From positions 62,001 through 126,000 of the forward strand of contig QHSP01000029.1 in NCBI GenBank assembly GCA_003220495.1: 64,000 bases of DNA, given 5' to 3'. The notes beneath the pieces were generated by a model. It worked only from the letters and a program-made list of their open reading frames with translations, was not told the origin of the DNA and ran no database searches. The DNA is from Candidatus Rokuibacteriota bacterium. Its GTDB lineage: Bacteria; Methylomirabilota; Methylomirabilia; Rokubacteriales; CSP1-6. Shown here piece after piece: positions 34,367 to 64,000 of the stretch (within the stretch, counting starts at the first letter, position 1; every line of letters begins with the position of its first letter). Both the position numbers and the translations under genes were made by a program.

Positions 34367-35233
34367 CTAGATGTTGAGGGATTTGAGGTAGGTGCGGAAG
34401 TCGGGGGCGAGGTCGGGGCGGGCCAGGGCGAACTCGACGGTGGCCTTGAGGAAGCCGAGCTTGTCGCCCGTGTCGTAGCGCCGGCCCTCGAACTCGACGG
34501 CGTACATGGGACGCCGCGCCCGCAGAATGCGGAGCGCGTCGGTCAGCTGGATCTCGCCGCGAGCGTCGGCCCCCGTGCCGGCCAGGATCTCGAAGATGTC
34601 CGGTGGCAGCACGTACCGACCGATGATGGCCAGATCCGACGGAGCGTCCGCGGCCTTTGGCTTCTCGACCAGGTCGACGATCTCGTGCACGCGGCTCTCG
34701 ACCGGCCGCGACGCGATGACGCCGTACTGATGGATCTGCTGGCGCGGCACGCGCTGCACGGCGAGGACCGGCGCCCCGTATCGACCGCTCACGTCGAGCA
34801 GCTGGCGCATGCAGGGCGTCGGCGCGCCGCCGATGATGTCGTCGCCCAGGAAGACGGCGAAGGGCTCGTCACCGACCAGCGAGCGCGCGCAGAGGATGGC
34901 GTGACCGAGCCCGAGCGGCTCGCGCTGGCGCACGTACGAGACCGAGGCGAGCTCGGAGATGGTCTTGATCTGGGCCAGCTCTTCCGTCTTGCCCCGGTCG
35001 TTCAGGTAGTACTCGAGCTCGAAGGCGGCGTCGAAGTGATCCTCGATCGCCCGCTTGCCGCGGCCGGTCACGATGATGATTTCCGAGAGACCCGAGGCGA
35101 CCGCCTCCTCGACGACGTACTGGATCATCGGCTTGTCGACGAGGGGAAGCATCTCTTTCGGCTGCGCCTTGGTCGCGGGAAGGAAGCGAGTTCCGAGCCC
35201 AGCGGCCGGGAACACCGCCTTGCGCACCTTCAT
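34367..35233 (-). CDS. galU: UTP-glucose-1-phosphate uridylyltransferase
   Basis: Makes UDP-glucose from glucose 1-phosphate and UTP, the entry point for many envelope sugars. The N-terminal nucleotide motif AAGLGTRFLPATKAQPKEMLP is complete, and VDKPMIQYVVEEA, GHAILCA, FLGDDIIGG and EFEGRRYDTGDKLGFLKA follow. Length is 288 residues. It lies 7 bp after the DUF2062 gene, downstream of the WecA-like and aminotransferase genes, so it probably supplies the polysaccharide locus. Confidence 0.95.
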   Translation of the reverse strand: MKVRKAVFPAAGLGTRFLPATKAQPKEMLPLVDKPMIQYVVEEAVASGLSEIIIVTGRGKRAIEDHFDAAFELEYYLNDRGKTEELAQIKTISELASVSYVRQREPLGLGHAILCARSLVGDEPFAVFLGDDIIGGAPTPCMRQLLDVSGRYGAPVLAVQRVPRQQIHQYGVIASRPVESRVHEIVDLVEKPKAADAPSDLAIIGRYVLPPDIFEILAGTGADARGEIQLTDALRILRARRPMYAVEFEGRRYDTGDKLGFLKATVEFALARPDLAPDFRTYLKSLNI

Positions 35234-35240
35234 GAACTTA

Positions 35241-35738
35241 TTATACCCGCCGCATCCGTGCGGCCCTACGACGTCGCAAGAGCACGAATGCCGCGACGTA
35301 GGTGAACACGCCCGCGACGGTCCCGACGGCGAGGGTGCCGATCAGGAGCGCCAGGGAGACGCTGCGCAGGAGCTCGATCAGGTCGCCCGCGGAGAGGGCC
35401 GAGGACATTTGCAAGAGCTCGGCGATCTCGGCGACGTCGGCCCCGTGGAGGTCCGGCAGGACGAAGGCGCCGATGCGCAGCGCGAAGCCGTACACGAGCG
35501 GCGCGAACCACGGCAGGTTGAGCCAGGTACCCGTCACCGTCACCGCCCGGTTCAGGCGGAAGATCGTCGCGACCGCGAGGGACAGGAGCGTCTGAAGGCC
35601 GTAGAACGGCGTGCAGCTGATGAAGACGCCGACCGCCAGCGCGAGCGCCACCCGCCAGGGTGGATCGTCGAGCCGCAGCACCGCGCCGAGCCGCGCGACG
35701 ACGGCGCGCCGGACGCGCGTCAAGACCGCGGCCGCCAC
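35241..35738 (-). CDS. DUF2062 membrane protein
   Basis: A 165-residue protein with three to four predicted membrane helices and the DUF2062 pattern GVFISCTPFYGLQTLLSLA ... NLPWFAPLVYGFALRIG. The function is unknown; family members often sit in sugar or lipid modification loci. The GTG at 35738 was chosen because AAGGAG lies seven bases upstream. This places the start inside the 3' end of the WecA-like gene, a 19-bp overlap. Confidence 0.72.
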   Translation of the reverse strand: MAAAVLTRVRRAVVARLGAVLRLDDPPWRVALALAVGVFISCTPFYGLQTLLSLAVATIFRLNRAVTVTGTWLNLPWFAPLVYGFALRIGAFVLPDLHGADVAEIAELLQMSSALSAGDLIELLRSVSLALLIGTLAVGTVAGVFTYVAAFVLLRRRRAARMRRV

Positions 35739-54976: not shown

Positions 54977-55518
54977 CGACCTCCGTGCTCGCGCACGTAG
55001 GCGGCGACGACGCTCCGCCACGAGCGCTGCGACGTCAAGACGAGCTCCACCAGCTCGCGGACTGCTCCGTGTCCACCCTGCGCGCGCGTCACGTGGTGCG
55101 CGGCCGCCTTCACCGCCGCCGGCGCGTCGGCGACCGCGACCGCGAGCCCGACGATCTGCATCGCCGGGATATCGATCAAGTCGTCGCCGATGAAGGCGAC
55201 CGCCTCGGCCGGCACGTTGTGCTCGGCGCGGAGCGCCTCGACGACCTCGCCCTTGCGGCGGGCCCCGAGGACGACCGAGTCGACGCCGAGCTTGGCGCCG
55301 CGCGCCTTCGCGATCGGGCTCGACTCCCCGGTGACCATCGCGGTCCTGATCCCCGCCCGCTTGGCCAGGGCGATGGCGAGCCCGTCGTGCGTGTTGAACG
55401 CCTTCAGCTCGTCGCCGCGCTCGGAGAGGATCATCCGGCCGTCGGTGAGCACGCCGTCCACGTCCATGACGAGGAGCCGGACCTTGCGGGCCCGCGCCAC
55501 GACGGCGCGCGTCGGCAT
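54973..55518 (-). CDS. kdsC: KdsC-like HAD phosphatase
   Basis: 181 residues of the small cap-less HAD type. VMDVDGVLTDGRM carries the catalytic D-x-D (Asp19, Asp21); FNTHDGLAIALAKRAGI, TGESSPI and FIGDDLIDIPAM complete the active site. The family dephosphorylates Kdo-8-phosphate or Neu5Ac/Kdn-9-phosphate. No kdsA, kdsB or neuB gene lies nearby, so the substrate is open. ATG 55518 overlaps the ligase stop by one base (TGATG); GTG 55521 is an alternative start. Confidence 0.85.
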   Translation of the reverse strand: MPTRAVVARARKVRLLVMDVDGVLTDGRMILSERGDELKAFNTHDGLAIALAKRAGIRTAMVTGESSPIAKARGAKLGVDSVVLGARRKGEVVEALRAEHNVPAEAVAFIGDDLIDIPAMQIVGLAVAVADAPAAVKAAAHHVTRAQGGHGAVRELVELVLTSQRSWRSVVAAYVREHGGR

Positions 55519-56834
55519 CACGCGAAGCGCCGGGTCAGGCGCGCGGCCGGCGCGGGCTCGACCGCCGCCGTCTCCGCCTGGGCCAGGCCGGGCAGCGCGA
55601 CCACGATGGCGGCGAAGAACCAGAACGGCTCCATGATGCGCACGATGATGAACGTGTTGGCGCCGAGCGCGTGGCCGAGCAGGCCGACGGTGCCGGCGAC
55701 GAACCCGAGCGCGAGCCCGCGCTCCTCGGGAACGGTCAGGGCCCGGTACGAGGTGACGCCGGCCTTCAGGACCGCCCAGACGAGCGCCAGGAACGTCGCG
55801 AGCCCCACGATGCCCGTCTCGACGAGCGTCCGGGCGAATTGCTGATCCATGAACGCGAAGCCGGTGACGCCGTACCCGAAGATCGGGCGATGGGTGAAGC
55901 CTTCGAAGGCCTGCTTCACGCTGATGAGCCGCGCCGAGGTGGACGGATCGAGGCCGACGGCGCCGACTCGCACCGTCGGCTGCCCGCGCTCGGGCTCGAA
56001 CGTGTAGTGCACGCGTTTCATCACCGAGTCGGGAAAGAGCGTCATGACAGCCGGCGAGGCGACGAGCGCGGCGATGAGCCCGCCGATCATCAGGCGACGC
56101 CGACTCGAGAGCACGGCCATCGTCGCCACCGCCGGGATCGCGCCCACGTAGGACGTCCGCGAGAGCGTGAACATGAACGGGATCGACATCATCCCGGCCA
56201 GCCCCAGGTAGATCGCGCGCGTCCGGAGCCGCGTCGTCTCGAGCGCGATGCCGCCGGCCACCGCGATGAGCAGCAGGAGATAGCCGCCGAACGTGTTGGG
56301 CTCGCCTGCCTTGCCCTCGAACGGCGCCGACACGCGCTGGCCGCTCGGAATCTGCGTCAGTCCGATCAGGCTGACGATGACCGCGGTCAGGAACGCCGCG
56401 GTGACGAGGCGCCACGCCTGCCGGCGGTCGACCAGGTTGTTGACGACCATGTAGTAGACGATGAAGTACTCGATGTACTTCAGGACGTAGAACACGCCGC
56501 CGTAGCCGGCGACCGTTCCGGTCATGTAGCCGATCAACGTCGCGATCGCGGTCGCCGCCACGTACGCGAGGATCGGGCGGTTGAGCGGAGTCTTGAGTGT
56601 GAGTCCAAGCTCCTTGTTCACGGCGGTCTTGGCGAGCCAGCTGAATGCGACGACGAGCAGGAGCAGATCTTCGCTCCGAATGACGATGCGTCGGCCCTCG
56701 GCGACCGCCCCGCCGCTCCCGAGCTGCGGCGAGAGCAGCATGGAGAAGATCACGAGGTAGAGGCCGAACTCGATCCGCACGAAGACGATGAGAAAGACAG
56801 CCAGCGCGGCGGCCAGGACGAGGGGCGAATCCAC
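55518..56834 (-). CDS. O-antigen ligase/polymerase-like protein (WaaL/Wzy)
   Basis: A 438-residue polytopic membrane protein with about ten helices. The conserved periplasmic region around PIFGYGVTGFAFMDQQFARTL and the SRTSYVGAI segment match the O-antigen_lig (PF04932) pattern. It could ligate glycans to lipid A core or polymerise repeat units; sequence alone does not decide. It starts with GTG, four bases after the BY-kinase stop, and overlaps the KdsC-like gene. Confidence 0.85.
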   Translation of the reverse strand: MDSPLVLAAALAVFLIVFVRIEFGLYLVIFSMLLSPQLGSGGAVAEGRRIVIRSEDLLLLVVAFSWLAKTAVNKELGLTLKTPLNRPILAYVAATAIATLIGYMTGTVAGYGGVFYVLKYIEYFIVYYMVVNNLVDRRQAWRLVTAAFLTAVIVSLIGLTQIPSGQRVSAPFEGKAGEPNTFGGYLLLLIAVAGGIALETTRLRTRAIYLGLAGMMSIPFMFTLSRTSYVGAIPAVATMAVLSSRRRLMIGGLIAALVASPAVMTLFPDSVMKRVHYTFEPERGQPTVRVGAVGLDPSTSARLISVKQAFEGFTHRPIFGYGVTGFAFMDQQFARTLVETGIVGLATFLALVWAVLKAGVTSYRALTVPEERGLALGFVAGTVGLLGHALGANTFIIVRIMEPFWFFAAIVVALPGLAQAETAAVEPAPAARLTRRFA

Positions 56835-56838
56835 GCGG

Positions 56839-59800
56839 CTACTTCACTCGCACGACCTGGTTGCCCAGGCCGAGGCGCATCAGCTCCTGACCTTTCGCCT
56901 GCGCTTCCCCTGACGTGGCGAAGTTGCCGTGACGGAGGGCGAACACCACCGCCTCGCCCGGCTGGGCGGCCACACGCACGTGATGGCCGCTCGCGCGCAG
57001 CCGCTCGGCCGTCTGGACGGCGCCGCGCAGCGGGAGGGGCAATCCCACCTGCACGCTCAGCGGCTCCCGCTCGCCAACCACGAACGCCTCGGCGAATCCT
57101 TGCTGGCGCAGCGAGGCGACGAGCGCCTGCGCGTCGCGCGCACTCGGGATCTTCTCGATGAGCACCGCGTAGAGGGAGGCTCCGGTCTGCTGGCGGAAGC
57201 GCACCGTCGGGTAGCCGGCCTCATTCAGCTGGCGCTCGACGCGCTCCGCCTCGGCCGCGGTCATGAACGGGCCGAACTCGATCGCGAAGCGCGCCGCCGC
57301 CGCGGGAGGGCCGGGCTGGGGAGGCGCCGGCCTGCTCGGCGCCGCCGAGGCGATCGGAGCGGGCCGCTCGACCGGCGCGGGCAGCGCCGCGGCCGGGGGC
57401 GCCGCGGCCGGGCCCAGGCTCATCACCGGCGCGGGCGACTCAAGCACCGGCTTCACCGCCGGAGCGGATGGCGGCGTGACAGGGCGCGGGGTCGCGAGCG
57501 CCGGAGCCGGCGTCGCGGCCGGCGCCTCGAGGCGCTGGCGCAGGATCTCTTTGGCCCGCTGCGTTCCGCCGAACCAGCCCAGCCGCCACCCGGTCAGCCC
57601 GCCGAGCGCCGCGAGGAGCGCCAGCACGATCGCTCCCATCCGGAGACGCCTGGCTTTCGACGAGCCCGTCGGCGTGTCGAGCACAAACGGCTCGGCCGGC
57701 GGAGCCGCCTCGCTGGCGAAGGGCGAGCCGATCATGTCGATCGTCGCGCGACCGTCGGGGTCGGCGGCGACGGCCTCGGCGCGGGCCTCACGGTGGAAGA
57801 GATTGCGCACGAAGCCGCGCACGCGCTCGAGGCGGTCCTTGCGGGGATCGACGACCGTCTCTTCGCCGTAGTAGTGCGTGTAGTACTGCGTGTAGGCGTA
57901 GCCCGCGATCTCGGTCTTCACGTCGTTCAGGACGACGCCCCAGACCTTGCCACCGACGTTCTCGACGTGCACTTTCGCGCGCTTGAGCACGAGCCGTCCG
58001 ACCTTGCCCGCTTGATAGACGAGGACCACGCCGTCGGCCTGCGAGGCGACGATCGCCGAGTCGGTGACGGGCAGAATCGGCGGCGTGTCGACGAGGATCA
58101 CGTCGTACACGTCCCGCACGGAGTGCAGGAAGCCCGACATCGCCGGCGTCGAGAGGAGTTCCGACGGGTTGGCGGGCACCGGGCCGGCCTCGATGATGTG
58201 GAGGTTGTCGAGGCCGGGGGCGGCCATGATGTCCTCCATCTCGAACCGCCCCATGAGGATGTCCGCGACCGTCCGGATGCAGTCGCGCCACTGCGCGCTC
58301 CCGACGAGGATGTTGGACAGGCCCGGCTCGCGCTCGATCCCGAAGAAGCGGTGGATGGACGGGCGCCGCATGTTCGCGCCGATGAGCAGGGTCTTCTGGC
58401 CGCTCTGGGCCATCGTCAGGGCGAGGTTCACGATCGTCGTCGTCTTGCCTTCTTGCAAGGTCGGGCTCGACACGACGAGAACCTTGCCGGAGCGCTCCAT
58501 GCGCGCGAACTGGATGTTGGTGCGGAGCGTGCGGTACGCCTCGGCGACCGGCGACTTCGGGTCGAAATGCGTGATCAGGAGCGAGTGGCTCAGCAGCGCC
58601 TCGGGATCGATCTGGGCCAGCGCCGGACGGCGCTCGAGAATCCGCTGCACGGTCTCGCGGGAGTCGATGTGCGGCACCACACCGAGCACGGGCACGCCGA
58701 GGTAGGCCTCGACGTCCTCGATGGTCCCGATCGAGGTGTCGAGCGTCTCGCGCACGAACGCCAGCACGAGCCCGAGCGCCAACCCCAGCACCGCGCCGAC
58801 CAGCATCGTGTTCGCCGTCTCGCCGCCGATCGGCGCGTCTGGCTCCGTCGCCGGCCGGACGATCGAGACCTCCTCGATCTGCTCCGCCTCCTTGATGAGC
58901 GCCTCCTGGTGCTTGGTCTTCAGGAGCGCCAGCAGGTCGTCGTTGGTCTTGGCCTCGCGCTGCAGGCGCTGCAACGAGAGCTCGAGGGTCGGGAGCTCCC
59001 GATTCTTCTGCTGCAGCTCGCCGATCTGCCGATTCAGGAACTCCTCGCGGTTGCGGAGCATCGCGGTCTGCGCCGACACTTCGCGGCGCATCTCGGCGCG
59101 TATCTCACGGATCCGGTCGTCGATGGCCTGCAGGCGCGGGTGCCGGTCGGTGACCTCGAGTGAAAGATTGTTCCGCTCGAGCTGGAGATCCGAGAGCGTC
59201 GACTGGAGCTTGTGCATCGCCGGATTGGAGGTCTCGATGAAGATGCGGTCGGTGGGCGCGGCCGCGTCGAGCCCGGCCAGGCGCTGCTGGATCGCCTCGA
59301 GCTCGATCCGCTGCTGGCGCGCCTTCTCGATGTCGCCGCGGACCTGGGTGAACACCGACATCAGCACCGACGACTCGGCGCCGGGCGCGACGATCCGGTT
59401 CGCCTCCCGGAACGCCCAGATCTCCGCCTCCGTGCGGCGCGAGCGCGCCTCGACGTCCTTCAGCTGGCTCTCGATGAATCGCCGCGCCTCGCTGACGCGC
59501 GAGTTCCGCAGGGATTTGTTGTAGTCGCGATACGACTCGGCGGTGGCGTTCGCGAGGTCTTGCGCCTCGCGCGGCTTCGTCGAGGTCGCCGTGATCTCGA
59601 GGATACTGGTGTTCGGCACGCGGGCCACTCTGAGCTTGGCGTTGATGGAGTCGAGCGCGCCCCAGTAGCCCTTCGCCTCGCGCGCGGCCGCTCCCGTCGG
59701 CGTCTCCTTCAGGTACCCCAACCGCTTGGCGACGTCCTCGAGGATCGGGTAGCTCTTGATGATCGTGACCTGGGTCTCGATCGAATCGGCGCTCGAGTAC

Positions 59801-60000
59801 GAGAGGACCTCCACCAGGAGCCCCGACAGCTGGGTCGACTGCTCGAACTTGACGGCGGTGGTCGCCTGGTAGACCGGAACCTTTTGGCGCACGAACCCGA
59901 AGCTCAGGAGCGCGACCAGCACCGTCGAGGCGATGATGATCATGCGCCGACGCCGCACGATCAGCCAGTAGTCGCGGAGATTCATCTCGTACTGCGCCAC
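56839..60000 (-). CDS. Wzz/BY-kinase with C-terminal TM and SPOR repeats
   Basis: A 1053-residue chain-length regulator fused to a tyrosine autokinase, with an added tail. The N-terminal Wzz domain lies between membrane helices at about 21-38 and 398-415, with coiled-coil segments between. The kinase has Walker A SPTLQEGKTTT (about 509-519) and Walker B VILVDTPP (about 632-639). Walker A' reads LLIGANMRRP (about 538-547), without the usual aspartates. A tyrosine cluster (YAYTQYYTHYYGEE) follows at about 700-715. After it come a third membrane helix (about 787-810), a Pro/Ala-rich linker, and two SPOR-like repeats (about 905-975 and 980-1053). The predicted topology puts the SPOR part in the periplasm. 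Confidence 0.92.
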   Translation of the reverse strand: MAQYEMNLRDYWLIVRRRRMIIIASTVLVALLSFGFVRQKVPVYQATTAVKFEQSTQLSGLLVEVLSYSSADSIETQVTIIKSYPILEDVAKRLGYLKETPTGAAAREAKGYWGALDSINAKLRVARVPNTSILEITATSTKPREAQDLANATAESYRDYNKSLRNSRVSEARRFIESQLKDVEARSRRTEAEIWAFREANRIVAPGAESSVLMSVFTQVRGDIEKARQQRIELEAIQQRLAGLDAAAPTDRIFIETSNPAMHKLQSTLSDLQLERNNLSLEVTDRHPRLQAIDDRIREIRAEMRREVSAQTAMLRNREEFLNRQIGELQQKNRELPTLELSLQRLQREAKTNDDLLALLKTKHQEALIKEAEQIEEVSIVRPATEPDAPIGGETANTMLVGAVLGLALGLVLAFVRETLDTSIGTIEDVEAYLGVPVLGVVPHIDSRETVQRILERRPALAQIDPEALLSHSLLITHFDPKSPVAEAYRTLRTNIQFARMERSGKVLVVSSPTLQEGKTTTIVNLALTMAQSGQKTLLIGANMRRPSIHRFFGIEREPGLSNILVGSAQWRDCIRTVADILMGRFEMEDIMAAPGLDNLHIIEAGPVPANPSELLSTPAMSGFLHSVRDVYDVILVDTPPILPVTDSAIVASQADGVVLVYQAGKVGRLVLKRAKVHVENVGGKVWGVVLNDVKTEIAGYAYTQYYTHYYGEETVVDPRKDRLERVRGFVRNLFHREARAEAVAADPDGRATIDMIGSPFASEAAPPAEPFVLDTPTGSSKARRLRMGAIVLALLAALGGLTGWRLGWFGGTQRAKEILRQRLEAPAATPAPALATPRPVTPPSAPAVKPVLESPAPVMSLGPAAAPPAAALPAPVERPAPIASAAPSRPAPPQPGPPAAAARFAIEFGPFMTAAEAERVERQLNEAGYPTVRFRQQTGASLYAVLIEKIPSARDAQALVASLRQQGFAEAFVVGEREPLSVQVGLPLPLRGAVQTAERLRASGHHVRVAAQPGEAVVFALRHGNFATSGEAQAKGQELMRLGLGNQVVRVK

Positions 60001-60010
60001 TAGCGGATCC

Positions 60011-61135
60011 TCATCGCGCGCCCTCCGCGACGGCGCCCGTGATGTAGAGGAACGGCGCGTCCGCGAGGTCGGTGGTCTTGGGCGACACCAGGCGTTGCCC
60101 CTTGCCGTCGGCGACGATCTCGACGCGCGGCCGCAGCGGGTGATGGCGATTCACCGCGGTCACGCGGCCGACCTCGCCGGTGTTCAGACGCACGAGCGTG
60201 CCGGGCGGAAAGACAGAGATCTCGGAGAGCAGCGCTTTGACGAGCTGCGACGGGAACGCCTCGTGCTTCGAGCGCACGATCTCGCGGATCGCCTCGTGCG
60301 GTCTCAGACGCGGCCGCGGCGGCGGCGGCATCGTGAGGCCCGTGTAGGTGTCGACCAGGCCGAGGACCTTCGCCTCCTGGCTCACACCGGTGCCGTGCAG
60401 ACCTTGCGGGAAGCCCTGCCCCTGCTCGCGCTCGTGATGCTGGAGCACGGCCTCGACGAGCCCCTCGCGCGGCGGCGACCAGCGGCGGATCAGCTCGACC
60501 GACAAGCGGGGGTGCGAGCGGTAGACCGTCTGCTCTTCGGGCGAGAGCGCGTCGAGGCGGCGCAAGAGGCTCTCGGGCACCTGCCAGAGCCCGACGTCGA
60601 TCAGGCTCCCGGCGATGCCGAGCTGCACCTGACGCGGGCGGTCGTAGCCGACGCTCGCGCCGATCGTCATCGCGAGCACGGCGACGCGCGACTGGTGGAA
60701 CGCCAGGTAGTCGACGCCCGCGAGCGCCGCGGTGCCGTTGGCGATCCAGAAGAGCTCGTTCGACCGCTCCAGCACGACCGCGACGCGCTCGATGATGCCC
60801 TGGAGCTCGGACCACGGAAACTCGTCGCCGGTGCGGATCAGCTCGCGGACGCGCGCGAGGAACAGCTGAAGCTCGGCGAAGAGCGGCTCGGCGCTCTCCG
60901 ACGGCGCGCCGGGCTCGATCGGCAAGGCGTCGAGGCTCGCCGCCGGATCGACAGCCCGGGGCCCCTCGACGGGCGACGGCGGCGCGGGCCGCGGCGCCTC
61001 GGTGACCGGGCGGGGTCGCGGCGGAGACGGCGTGGGCGGCGGGGGTGACGGCGCAGCGGGCGCCGGCGCGTCCCTGGCGGTATCCGCGGGCTTCTCGCGG
61101 ACGATCCCGCGCACGACGTCGCTCATGCGGACCAT
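60011..61135 (-). CDS. Degenerate HD-GYP domain protein
   Basis: A 374-residue cytoplasmic protein. The first 100 residues are Pro/Ala-rich and disordered. The HD-GYP fold follows with FHQSRVAVLAMTIG, SLIDVGLWQVPE (family: L-H-D-I-G-K), RSHPRLSVELIRRW, LQHHEREQGQGFPQGL (family: G-Y-P) and VDTYTGLT. The HD dyad histidine is replaced by Ile and GYP by GFP, so c-di-GMP hydrolysis is doubtful. It may be a c-di-GMP sensor or scaffold. ATG 61135 overlaps the ATPase stop by one base (TGATG). It sits between the ATPase and the BY-kinase. Confidence 0.82.
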   Translation of the reverse strand: MVRMSDVVRGIVREKPADTARDAPAPAAPSPPPPTPSPPRPRPVTEAPRPAPPSPVEGPRAVDPAASLDALPIEPGAPSESAEPLFAELQLFLARVRELIRTGDEFPWSELQGIIERVAVVLERSNELFWIANGTAALAGVDYLAFHQSRVAVLAMTIGASVGYDRPRQVQLGIAGSLIDVGLWQVPESLLRRLDALSPEEQTVYRSHPRLSVELIRRWSPPREGLVEAVLQHHEREQGQGFPQGLHGTGVSQEAKVLGLVDTYTGLTMPPPPRPRLRPHEAIREIVRSKHEAFPSQLVKALLSEISVFPPGTLVRLNTGEVGRVTAVNRHHPLRPRVEIVADGKGQRLVSPKTTDLADAPFLYITGAVAEGAR

Positions 61136-61941
61136 CAGGACACCCCGACCATGTCCTTGATCACCTCGGCGACGATCTTGTCCCCGATCTCCTTCACACG
61201 CTTGGAGTAGCCGACGAGCAGGGCGACGTCGCACAGGTTGTTGATCTCGCGCGGCGTCCCCCGCGTGAAGTCGAAGATGAGCTTGACCGCGTCTTCGGTG
61301 AAGAGCCGGTTCGGCCGGCCGGCCATCCGCAGCCGATGCGCGATGTAGCTGGCGGTGTGCTGGTCGTCGAGCGTGTTGAGGTGGTACCGAAGGCTGATCC
61401 GCTGGTCGAGGTGCTTGAGGCGCCGCACCTTCACGCCGAGCTCGGGTGAGCCGACGAGCAGGAGCGTCATCAGAAACCGGTCGTCGGTCTGGAAGTTCAT
61501 CAAGAGTCGCAGCTCCTCGAAGACCGAATCGTCCTCGATGAGCTGCGCTTCGTCGACGATGACGACGCTGTCACGCCCGGCCTGGTAGTTCCGGAAGAAG
61601 AGGTCGTTGAGAAGGTGCAGCAGCTCGGGCTTGCGCGTCTCCTGCGTCTCGACCCCCAGCTGGTAGAGCACCTCGCGCAAAAAATCGACCGGCGTCCAGC
61701 TCGGATTGGTGAGAAGGCCGATCTCGTAGCGCTCGGCCTCGAGGCGCTGGATGAGCGCGCGCGACAAGGTCGTCTTGCCGCAGCCGTACTCCCCGGTGAG
61801 CATCCCGCAGCCCTTGCGGTGGCGCACCGTGTAGACCAGGCGGACCAGCGCCTCCTCGTGCTCGGGCGATAGGTAGAAAAACTTCGGGTTCGGGGAGTTG
61901 TCGAAGGGCGGCTCGGTCAGCTCCCAGTACGATTCGTACAC
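61135..61941 (-). CDS. ExeA-like AAA+ ATPase
   Basis: A 268-residue ATPase. The start YESYWELTEPPFDNSPNPKF, Walker A TGEYGCGKTTLSRAL (about 47-61), Walker B SVVIVDEAQLI, and FTRGTPREINNLCDVALL match the ExeA/GspA family. Relatives occur in type II secretion and in exosortase-linked EPS loci next to the BY-kinase, as here. It lacks the C-terminal peptidoglycan-binding domain of full-length ExeA. It starts with GTG, three bases after the exporter stop. Confidence 0.9.
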   Translation of the reverse strand: MYESYWELTEPPFDNSPNPKFFYLSPEHEEALVRLVYTVRHRKGCGMLTGEYGCGKTTLSRALIQRLEAERYEIGLLTNPSWTPVDFLREVLYQLGVETQETRKPELLHLLNDLFFRNYQAGRDSVVIVDEAQLIEDDSVFEELRLLMNFQTDDRFLMTLLLVGSPELGVKVRRLKHLDQRISLRYHLNTLDDQHTASYIAHRLRMAGRPNRLFTEDAVKLIFDFTRGTPREINNLCDVALLVGYSKRVKEIGDKIVAEVIKDMVGVS

Positions 61942-61944
61942 GGG

Positions 61945-63510
61945 TCAGTTGCCGCTGCCGGTCTGGCCGTTGAAGATGAAGTAGAGACCGGTGTACGCGG
62001 TGACCAGGCTGGCGATCGCCGTCAGGATCGTGACGTAGTCCTGCCACCACTTGACCGCGACCTCGGGCACCGTCACCACGGCGCCGGGCTCGAGCGGCGG
62101 CGCGTCGGCCATCGCGTACGTTTTTCCGTTGCGGAAGGTCACGAGCGTGTTCATGAGCCGGGCCCGGTTCGTGGGCCCGCCGGCGAGCGCGACGTACTCA
62201 CGCGGCGTCAGGTCGGGCCGGAAGTCGTGGGCGCCCGGCGTCTTGACCTCACCGAGAATGAAGATCCGGTCCTCGACGATCGGCAGCACGAACACGTCGC
62301 CGTTCTGGAGCACGATGTTCGGCGCGTCGTCCTTCTCGACCAGCATGCGGTAGAGGTCGATGGGGATCCGCTGCCGCGGGCCGGTGGTCCCGCTCCGCTC
62401 GACGAGCGCCAGGCGCAGGTCGGCGTAGGCGGCAGCGCCGCCCGCCCGGTCGAGGACGTCACGCACGCGCTCGCCCTGCGCCAGCTCGAGGCGCTGGAGG
62501 ATCGTCGACTTGCCGGCGACGGAGGCCTTGGTGCTCTCGGCGGTGCCGATGAACGCGCCGCGGACCTCGACGACGTCCTGCAGCGACGAGATCGCCGGCA
62601 CGAAGATCGCGTCACCGGGTCGCAGCATGAGCTCCGTGGGCGGCGTCAGCGCCGAGCGCAGATCGAGCGGCATCGCTTCCTTGCGGTCGCCGGCGCCCAC
62701 ACGCGTCAGGCGGGCATCGCCGATCGCGGCCGTCTGGCTCAGGCCACCCACCAGCTCCAAGAGCTCGCGCAGGGACGGCGTCGGGCCGATCTCGTATTCG
62801 CCGGGCCGGCGCACCGCGCCGGAGAGCGTGACGGAACCCGAGCGCGGGGGCACGTGGATCCTGAGCCCCTCCTCGACGAACGGATTCTGCGTGAGGTCGC
62901 CGCGCAGCTGGAAGGCGAGCAGGTCGATCGTGCGCGCGGCGCTCCGACGCGTCAGCACGATGTTCCGCATGCTCCCGCGAGGCGAGACGCCGCCGGCTTC
63001 GAGGATGACGTCGTACACGCGGCGGGTCGCCGTGGTCTGCAGGGTCCCCGGACGCTCCACGTCCCCCGACACCGTCACCTCGAACGTGCGCGGCGCCACG
63101 ACCGTGATGGTCGCGTCGGCGTACTTGAACACGTCGCGCGCGCGTTCGGACACTTTGCGATGCGCCTCGAGCAACGTCAGGCCCCCGACGGGGAGAGCCC
63201 CGAGCGGCGGCACATTGATCGCGCCCTCGAGATCGACGACCGCCTGCTGGCGGATCACCTCGAGCCGTCCTGCGATCTGGACGTCCAGAACGTCACCCGG
63301 AGCGAGTCGGTAGTCCGGCCCGGGCGTGACCCCCCGTGGCGACGCCGACGCCAGTGGCGGGGTCGGTGCCGGTGCCGGGGTCGACCGCGGCGTCGGCCCA
63401 GGCGGCAGCGGGGGCGAAGTGCTCGGAATTTGAGCGAACCCCGGACTGGGCGCCAGTAGGGACACCACGATGAGCAGGCTGAGGCACCTGCGTAGACTAC
63501 CGGGCTTCAT
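61945..63510 (-). CDS. Wza-like polysaccharide export protein with SLBB domains
   Basis: An exported protein of about 521 residues. Signal peptide LSLLIVVSLLAPSPGFAQ, without a lipobox cysteine. A Pro-rich linker precedes the Poly_export domain (DYRLAPGDVLDVQIAGR, about 66-82). Two or more SLBB repeats follow (VSGDVERPGTLQTT, LSGAVRRPGEYEIG, ILGEVKTPGAHDFR). The C-terminal helix (ILTAIASLVTAYTGLYFIF) would cross the outer membrane or anchor the protein. It leads the locus from the promoter near 63.55 kb. ATG 63510 gives the most normal signal peptide; GTG 63522 is possible. Confidence 0.9.
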   Translation of the reverse strand: MKPGSLRRCLSLLIVVSLLAPSPGFAQIPSTSPPLPPGPTPRSTPAPAPTPPLASASPRGVTPGPDYRLAPGDVLDVQIAGRLEVIRQQAVVDLEGAINVPPLGALPVGGLTLLEAHRKVSERARDVFKYADATITVVAPRTFEVTVSGDVERPGTLQTTATRRVYDVILEAGGVSPRGSMRNIVLTRRSAARTIDLLAFQLRGDLTQNPFVEEGLRIHVPPRSGSVTLSGAVRRPGEYEIGPTPSLRELLELVGGLSQTAAIGDARLTRVGAGDRKEAMPLDLRSALTPPTELMLRPGDAIFVPAISSLQDVVEVRGAFIGTAESTKASVAGKSTILQRLELAQGERVRDVLDRAGGAAAYADLRLALVERSGTTGPRQRIPIDLYRMLVEKDDAPNIVLQNGDVFVLPIVEDRIFILGEVKTPGAHDFRPDLTPREYVALAGGPTNRARLMNTLVTFRNGKTYAMADAPPLEPGAVVTVPEVAVKWWQDYVTILTAIASLVTAYTGLYFIFNGQTGSGN

Positions 63511-63545
63511 TCGGTCGTCCACGACACCAAATGGAAATTAAAGTT

Positions 63546-63684: not shown

Positions 63685-64000
63685 ATGGTACCTAGAAGCA
63701 TCCGCATCGCCCTGGCCGCCTGTGCGCTTTTCGCCTTTCTCGGCGCAGGCTTCTGGATTCACGCGCTCTTCTTCACGCGGTCACCCCTGACCGCATCGTC
63801 GCCCGTGCAGGCGCCGAACGCGGCGGAAGCCCTCCAGTCGGCTTTCGTGAGCGTTGCCGAGCACGTTCGGCCCGCCGTCGTCCACATCAGCCCCGTCCAG
63901 GTCGCGAAGCGTCGCCGGCCGCCGATCGCCCCCGGTCCGTTCGCGGACGACCCGCTTCTAAAGGACTTTTTCGACCAGTTCTTCGGTCCGCGAGTCCCCG
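63685..64000 (+). CDS. HtrA/DegP-family serine protease, 3' end cut by window
   Basis: Only the first 105 residues are in the window. An N-terminal signal anchor (IALAACALFAFLGAGFWIHALFF) is followed by SAFVSVAEHVRPAVVHISP and DPLLKDFFDQFFGPRVP. These match the segment of HtrA/DegQ proteases before the trypsin-like domain; the catalytic triad and PDZ domains would lie beyond the window. It is a periplasmic quality-control protease, divergent from the polysaccharide locus and sharing its promoter palindrome. ATG 63685 has only a weak ribosome site. Confidence 0.82.
   Translation, partial: MVPRSIRIALAACALFAFLGAGFWIHALFFTRSPLTASSPVQAPNAAEALQSAFVSVAEHVRPAVVHISPVQVAKRRRPPIAPGPFADDPLLKDFFDQFFGPRVP

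Follow-up and report, generated by a model that had tools for sequence, protein, structure and literature searches.

One open reading frame in the window, the 64,000-nucleotide stretch of DNA analysed here, encodes a polysaccharide co-polymerase with a degenerate BY-kinase site and a C-terminal pair of SPOR folds. With a probability of about 0.5, we read this protein as a PCP-2, Wzc-like co-polymerase of a Wzx/Wzy-type locus of soil Rokubacteria that has been remodelled: the Walker A' aspartates were lost, autophosphorylation would be absent or weak, and the SPOR pair would tie the machine to the cell wall. All coordinates refer to the window, and all features lie on the minus strand unless stated otherwise.

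Domain architecture and operon

The frame (56839..60000) starts with GTG and encodes 1053 aa in the order Wzz, BY-(pseudo)kinase, a third membrane helix (TM3) and tandem SPOR. An HMM search with Pfam matched Wzz, GNVR, AAA_31 and SPOR in this single frame. The Wzz domain comprises residues 5-93 (59722..59988; PF02706, E=1.2e-10) and includes TM1 (residues 18-39). The GNVR domain (residues 343-418; PF13807, E=6e-10) and TM2 (residues 395-421) together occupy 58738..58974. The BY-kinase-like domain follows at residues 460-715 (57856..58623), with PDB matches to CapB (7.9e-45), Wzc, Etk and VpsO and an AAA_31 match at residues 518-664 (E=7e-11). It retains the EAYRTLRTN oligomerisation motif. The Wzz and GNVR domains, two TM helices, a BY-kinase fold in the same chain and an OPX gene within the surrounding polysaccharide locus are features of the PCP-2a/Wzc type.

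The conserved tyrosine cluster (GYAYTQYYTHYYGEE, residues 701-711, 57868..57900) is not at the end of the chain. It is followed by 342 residues, where the initial annotation had estimated about 340. Hydropathy places three hydrophobic helices at residues 18-39, 395-421 and 786-808; the AlphaFold model of residues 700-1053 has the third as a helix at 781-806 (57583..57660), with Arg/Lys on the kinase side. TM3 was found in all complete members of the family. In the model it leads into a low-confidence, disordered Pro/Ala-rich linker (residues ~826-900, 57301..57525) and two SPOR-fold domains, repeat 1 at residues 903-974 (57079..57294) and repeat 2 at residues 975-1053 (56842..57078). Thus Pfam, hydropathy and AlphaFold bear out the initial description of a BY-kinase with an added membrane helix and two SPOR-like repeats. 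The topology proposed there also agrees with the three TM segments: with the kinase taken as inside, the C-terminus and its SPOR pair are predicted to be periplasmic.

The gene is part of a conserved operon of the order OPX, AAA, HD, kinase and Wzy_C. An OPX/Wza-like polysaccharide export protein with SLBB domains (61945..63522) is followed by an AAA_22 ATPase related to TIGR03015, the XrtA-associated ATPase (61135..61941), and both are conserved neighbours. The HD-domain protein (PF13487, 60011..61234) belongs to the same operon, and its annotated start is probably too early. Directly downstream of the kinase lies a Wzy_C/O-antigen-ligase-like membrane protein (55518..56834), a conserved neighbour in both kinase clades described below. 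The only exosortase of the genome lies away from the polysaccharide cluster.

Loss of the Walker A' aspartates

Walker A (LQEGKTTT, residues ~512-521, 58438..58467) and Walker B (VILVDTPP, residues ~634-641, 58078..58101) are intact. In an alignment of 29 members, the Walker A Lys was invariant, and the Walker B Asp and the tyrosine cluster were invariant or nearly so. Walker A' is degenerate (LLIGANMRR; LLIGANMR at residues 538-545, 58366..58389). Both aspartates are lost in every member, the motif reads G/N-x-N throughout and the asparagine (N543) is invariant; the family is called GxN below. DxD is kept in E. coli Wzc and in most kinases elsewhere in these genomes. In Wzc, D564 is the second residue of the Asp pair and serves as a marker of the active site opposite the substrate tyrosine (PMC11986026); its equivalent in the window protein is Asn. 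An active BY-kinase would be expected to carry the Walker A Lys, the Walker B Asp and the Walker A' DxD, and the last of these is missing. The initial annotation had overlooked the degenerate Walker A', and its assumption of a working kinase is weaker for it. Judged from the sequence, the domain is likely a pseudokinase. It is the most constrained part of the protein (dN/dS 0.02-0.13).

The non-phosphorylated Wzc ring is kept together by the tyrosine tail, which lies in the active site of the neighbouring subunit (PMC8285477). By analogy, a ring-holding role of the tyrosine tail may account for the retention of the cluster. Phosphorylation-free PCP-2 systems have been described: catalytic residues are lost in EcpK and HfsB of the EcpK/EpsV and HfsAB systems (PMC12004946).

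Fold and predicted binding of the SPOR tandem

Repeat 1 reached 38.7 bits (E=1.3e-9) against a Pfam SPOR cut-off of 21 (PF05036). Repeat 2, scored alone, stayed under the cut-off (16.6 bits, E=0.01) but has the same fold. AlphaFold on 29 homologous tails returned two beta-alpha-beta-beta-alpha-beta domains with a mean pLDDT of 91.7, so that residues 900-1053 hold one repeat above the cut-off and two SPOR folds. In Foldseek searches, the SPOR domain of FtsN (1uta) was matched with a probability of 0.97 and an rmsd of 3.3 at a weak E of 0.28, and CwlC (1x60) was matched as well. The fold is small and common; no Foldseek match fell under E=0.001, and the best (E=0.0022) was a designed protein. 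When the sequence profiles of the two repeats were compared, the match spanned only 30 columns, and their kinship therefore rests on the fold and the family alignment.

Five residues matter in the SPOR domain of FtsN, and two of them, Q251 and R285, match the glycan contacts Q270 and R309 of RlpA (PMC6895207). In repeat 1, the Q251 equivalent is E and the R285 equivalent is A or G in 29/29 GxN members (E908 and A945 in the window protein), and P stands at the position of FtsN S254. Repeat 1 thus lacks both residues on which glycan binding in the FtsN/RlpA manner depends, and it is doubtful that the window protein uses this mode. Since E and A/G replace Q and R, binding to denuded septal peptidoglycan appears plausible but not secure. 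The SPOR fold that had been claimed at the outset was found, and the claim of septal peptidoglycan binding attached to it is weaker. The genome encodes three SPOR proteins and one amidase_3, which could produce denuded glycan.

Distribution and integrity of the fusion

The survey covered Methylomirabilota genomes, every one of them an uncultured MAG. The tandem tail was found at E<1e-60 in 38 of 95 Methylomirabilota genomes, all 38 in one family. The genome scan matched 34 loci, all titled Rokubacteria except one titled Chloroflexi. At this locus (L013, JACVXW010000187.1), the GxN kinase is of the Rokubacteria type, ends in a SPOR tail and is followed by the same downstream gene; the MAG is probably mislabelled or mixed. 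The tail is in the same frame at every locus that reaches the gene end except L027 (6001-9130), whose Wzz part is frameshifted, probably through a sequencing error, and whose tail is intact in the other frame. GxN kinases without tail all end at contig ends, and no uninterrupted GxN kinase lacked it. The SPOR repeats evolve at dN/dS 0.08-0.32 and the linker, which changes fast, at 0.4-1.1. Because the tail is conserved and under purifying selection, we regard it as functional.

A frameshift or assembly artefact joining two genes is ruled out by the same single fused frame in ~38 genomes. Independent assemblies from many genera agree on it, and purifying selection acts on either side of the fusion; we give an artefact practically no credence. 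A contrasting case occurs in the same genome (L141, 3721-7035, plus strand, contig C88), where the frame of a DxD BY-kinase continues into an OPX protein with signal peptide and SLBB, giving one 1105-aa ORF near the only exosortase. In four congeners a stop ends the kinase matching this ORF, and OPX is separate where it is seen. In contrast to the SPOR fusion, this single frame is not conserved, and a lost stop or an assembly error is likely in L141.

The sister ExD clade

At Walker A', ExD is found in the nearest relatives of the GxN kinases, whose setting (OPX-kinase-Wzy_C) is orthologous. The kinase tree shows GxN and the main ExD group as sister clades, each with a support of 100/99. Five ExD kinases (L123, L124, L125, L129 and L132) have TM3 and SPOR domains that pass the Pfam cut-off (E between 1e-9 and 1.6e-14). 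Four others (L126, L127, L128 and L130) are without tail, L131 has the TM only, and L133 the TM and a short remnant. The ExD SPOR tails differ from those of the GxN clade and retain the Q and R glycan-contact residues. Walker B among the sister kinases L123-L133 is often DCSP/DCAP-like in place of DTPP.

Origin of the tail

Across Methylomirabilota, TM-SPOR-SPOR proteins are also encoded by stand-alone genes, none of which was found beside a kinase gene. Families f2 and f4 share the order cytidylate_kin2 (+), SPOR (-), HtrA (+), DUF2062 (+) and galU (+). In G069, which belongs to family f1, cytidylate_kin2 (+), HtrA (-) and SPOR (+) precede, further along, galU (+), PRTase (+) and trpC/F/B (+). 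In the same reading direction, the window has cytidylate_kin2 just past its end, HtrA in opposite orientation, OPX, AAA, HD, kinase-SPOR, Wzy_C, polysaccharide genes, DUF2062, galU, PRTase and trpC/F/B. The HtrA/DegP-like protease, assigned from the Pfam matches of its relatives, lies at 63742..63999 on the plus strand and continues past the window; in the relatives it adjoins the stand-alone SPOR gene. The galU and DUF2062 genes (34370..35708) form the other flank of this ancestral SPOR-gene neighbourhood. In the window, the polysaccharide cluster has taken the place of the stand-alone gene there. HtrA and cytidylate_kin2 are upstream in most other members whose contig reaches far enough. G085 has the conserved site without the operon and without a SPOR gene. 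In L073, L074 and L075, loci of Rokubacteria relatives, a conserved set of cytidylate-kinase-like/BON, TM-SPOR-SPOR, HtrA-like protease, DUF2062 and galU was observed, possibly an envelope-maintenance unit.

In the SPOR tree, the GxN tails group with the stand-alone proteins L073 (87/96, a moderate support) and L074/L075 (89/83), and the ExD tails fall elsewhere. The tail thus matches the stand-alone gene of the relatives in sequence and in chromosomal position, which argues for gene capture. The simplest reading of these comparisons is that the kinase captured a resident SPOR gene and that the ExD clade gained its SPOR separately. An origin from the neighbouring AAA_22 ATPase (DamX/ExeA-like) was considered and dropped, since the tail is most closely related to the stand-alone SPOR genes that lie at the cytidylate-kinase/HtrA site.

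TM3 is followed by a similar W-x-x-G stretch in both kinase clades, and one old fusion with a later swap would be compatible with it. The stretch would also suit a history in which the stand-alone genes of G069 and others are fission fragments of an ancestral fused kinase, with one ancient fusion common to both clades; on the kinase tree, the SPOR label costs just 4 changes. However, in L074 and L075, from two families outside f1, the stand-alone gene occupies the conserved site and is not adjoined by a polysaccharide operon, and the SPOR tree places the domains of the two kinase clades in different parts. We therefore consider fission improbable.

Proposed mechanism and alternatives

In the remodelled co-polymerase that we favour, autophosphorylation would be absent or nearly so. 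As in Wzc that is not phosphorylated, the tyrosine tail and bound nucleotide would keep the ring together. Through their long, flexible periplasmic linkers, the SPOR pairs would fix or place the co-polymerase, along with its partner OPX, at the peptidoglycan. Wall contact, and not a kinase/phosphatase cycle, would then set export, suggesting an export tied to the cell wall instead of one switched by phosphorylation. The link between chain-length control and the cell wall that had been proposed initially remains plausible but unproven, and its septal-binding and working-kinase parts have lost weight.

Several points speak against the favoured reading. The conserved tyrosine cluster, Walker A and Walker B could signal residual activity, and DxD paralogues in the same genome could phosphorylate in trans. 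The same intact motifs would fit an active BY-kinase, as assumed in the initial annotation: another acidic residue would replace the Walker A' aspartates, and the SPOR tail would do no more than target an otherwise normal, phospho-cycling Wzc to septal peptidoglycan. Pneumococcal CpsD is a BY-kinase able to work at the division site (PMC4574921), and the genome has four LMW phosphotyrosine phosphatase matches. However, the scanned genes of the polysaccharide cluster include no LMW-type phosphatase, every member lacks the two aspartates that paralogues keep, and the active-site marker is replaced by Asn. An active kinase is thus unlikely. The missing Q and R contacts of repeat 1 also make wall binding in the known mode doubtful. 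They raise the alternative that the tandem has a different ligand, either another glycan, for example the polysaccharide being exported, or a protein, for example OPX or Wzy. The proline at the S254 position points the same way, and the retention of Q and R in the sister-clade tails makes the change specific to the GxN clade and its nearest stand-alone relatives. Yet the fold is that of SPOR, the S254 and W283 equivalents vary among known binders too (PMC6895207), and repeat 2 could carry the binding. We consider another ligand rather unlikely, if somewhat less so than an active kinase.

The findings bear on the placement of capsule or exopolysaccharide export on the cell, and of the export conduit relative to the peptidoglycan, in Gram-negative bacteria. 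Here, one conserved protein combines a co-polymerase, SPOR folds and a decayed kinase site and predicts a phosphorylation-independent, wall-dependent control, accessible through its separate domains. A natural comparison series is formed by the DxD, ExD and GxN kinases, whether tailed by SPOR or not. More tentatively, and with the odds somewhat against it, there may be a class of phosphorylation-free co-polymerases in which regulatory input has shifted from the tyrosine-kinase cycle to a periplasmic wall sensor, with at least two separate SPOR gains in one lineage and erosion of the kinase site alongside (ExD, GxN). In the open-licence literature we found no description of SPOR joined to BY-kinase, chain-length or exopolysaccharide proteins; databases may list similar architectures unremarked.

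Comparison with known systems

The window protein resembles Wzc and Etk, the PCP-2a BY-kinases of E. coli, in its Wzz domain, two TM helices, cytoplasmic BY-kinase, tyrosine cluster and adjoining OPX gene. It differs from them by GxN in place of DxD and by ~342 extra residues with TM3, two SPOR folds and a predicted periplasmic C-terminus. EcpK/EpsV of Myxococcus and HfsB/HfsA of Caulobacter likewise belong to Wzx/Wzy loci and include a BY-kinase fold that lacks catalytic residues (PMC12004946). These are separate proteins without catalytic motifs and tyrosine tail, whereas the window protein joins kinase and PCP in one chain, keeps Walker A, Walker B and the tyrosine cluster, and has SPOR added. 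CpsC/CpsD of Streptococcus pneumoniae set an example of a BY-kinase that couples capsule synthesis to the division site; unlike the window protein, they are a Gram-positive system of two proteins with an active kinase and a ParB interaction, and no SPOR domain is described (PMC4574921).

The periplasmic SPOR fold is shared with FtsN, DamX, DedD and RlpA. The first three of these further resemble the window protein in their TM helix and long linker. Compared with these proteins, the window protein has two repeats, no Q/R contacts in repeat 1 and a fusion to a co-polymerase. The nearest relatives of its tail are the stand-alone TM-SPOR-SPOR proteins of Methylomirabilota (L073-L092), of which L073-L075 are encoded at the homologous chromosomal site. 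In contrast to the window protein, they are unfused, and no polysaccharide operon adjoins their genes.
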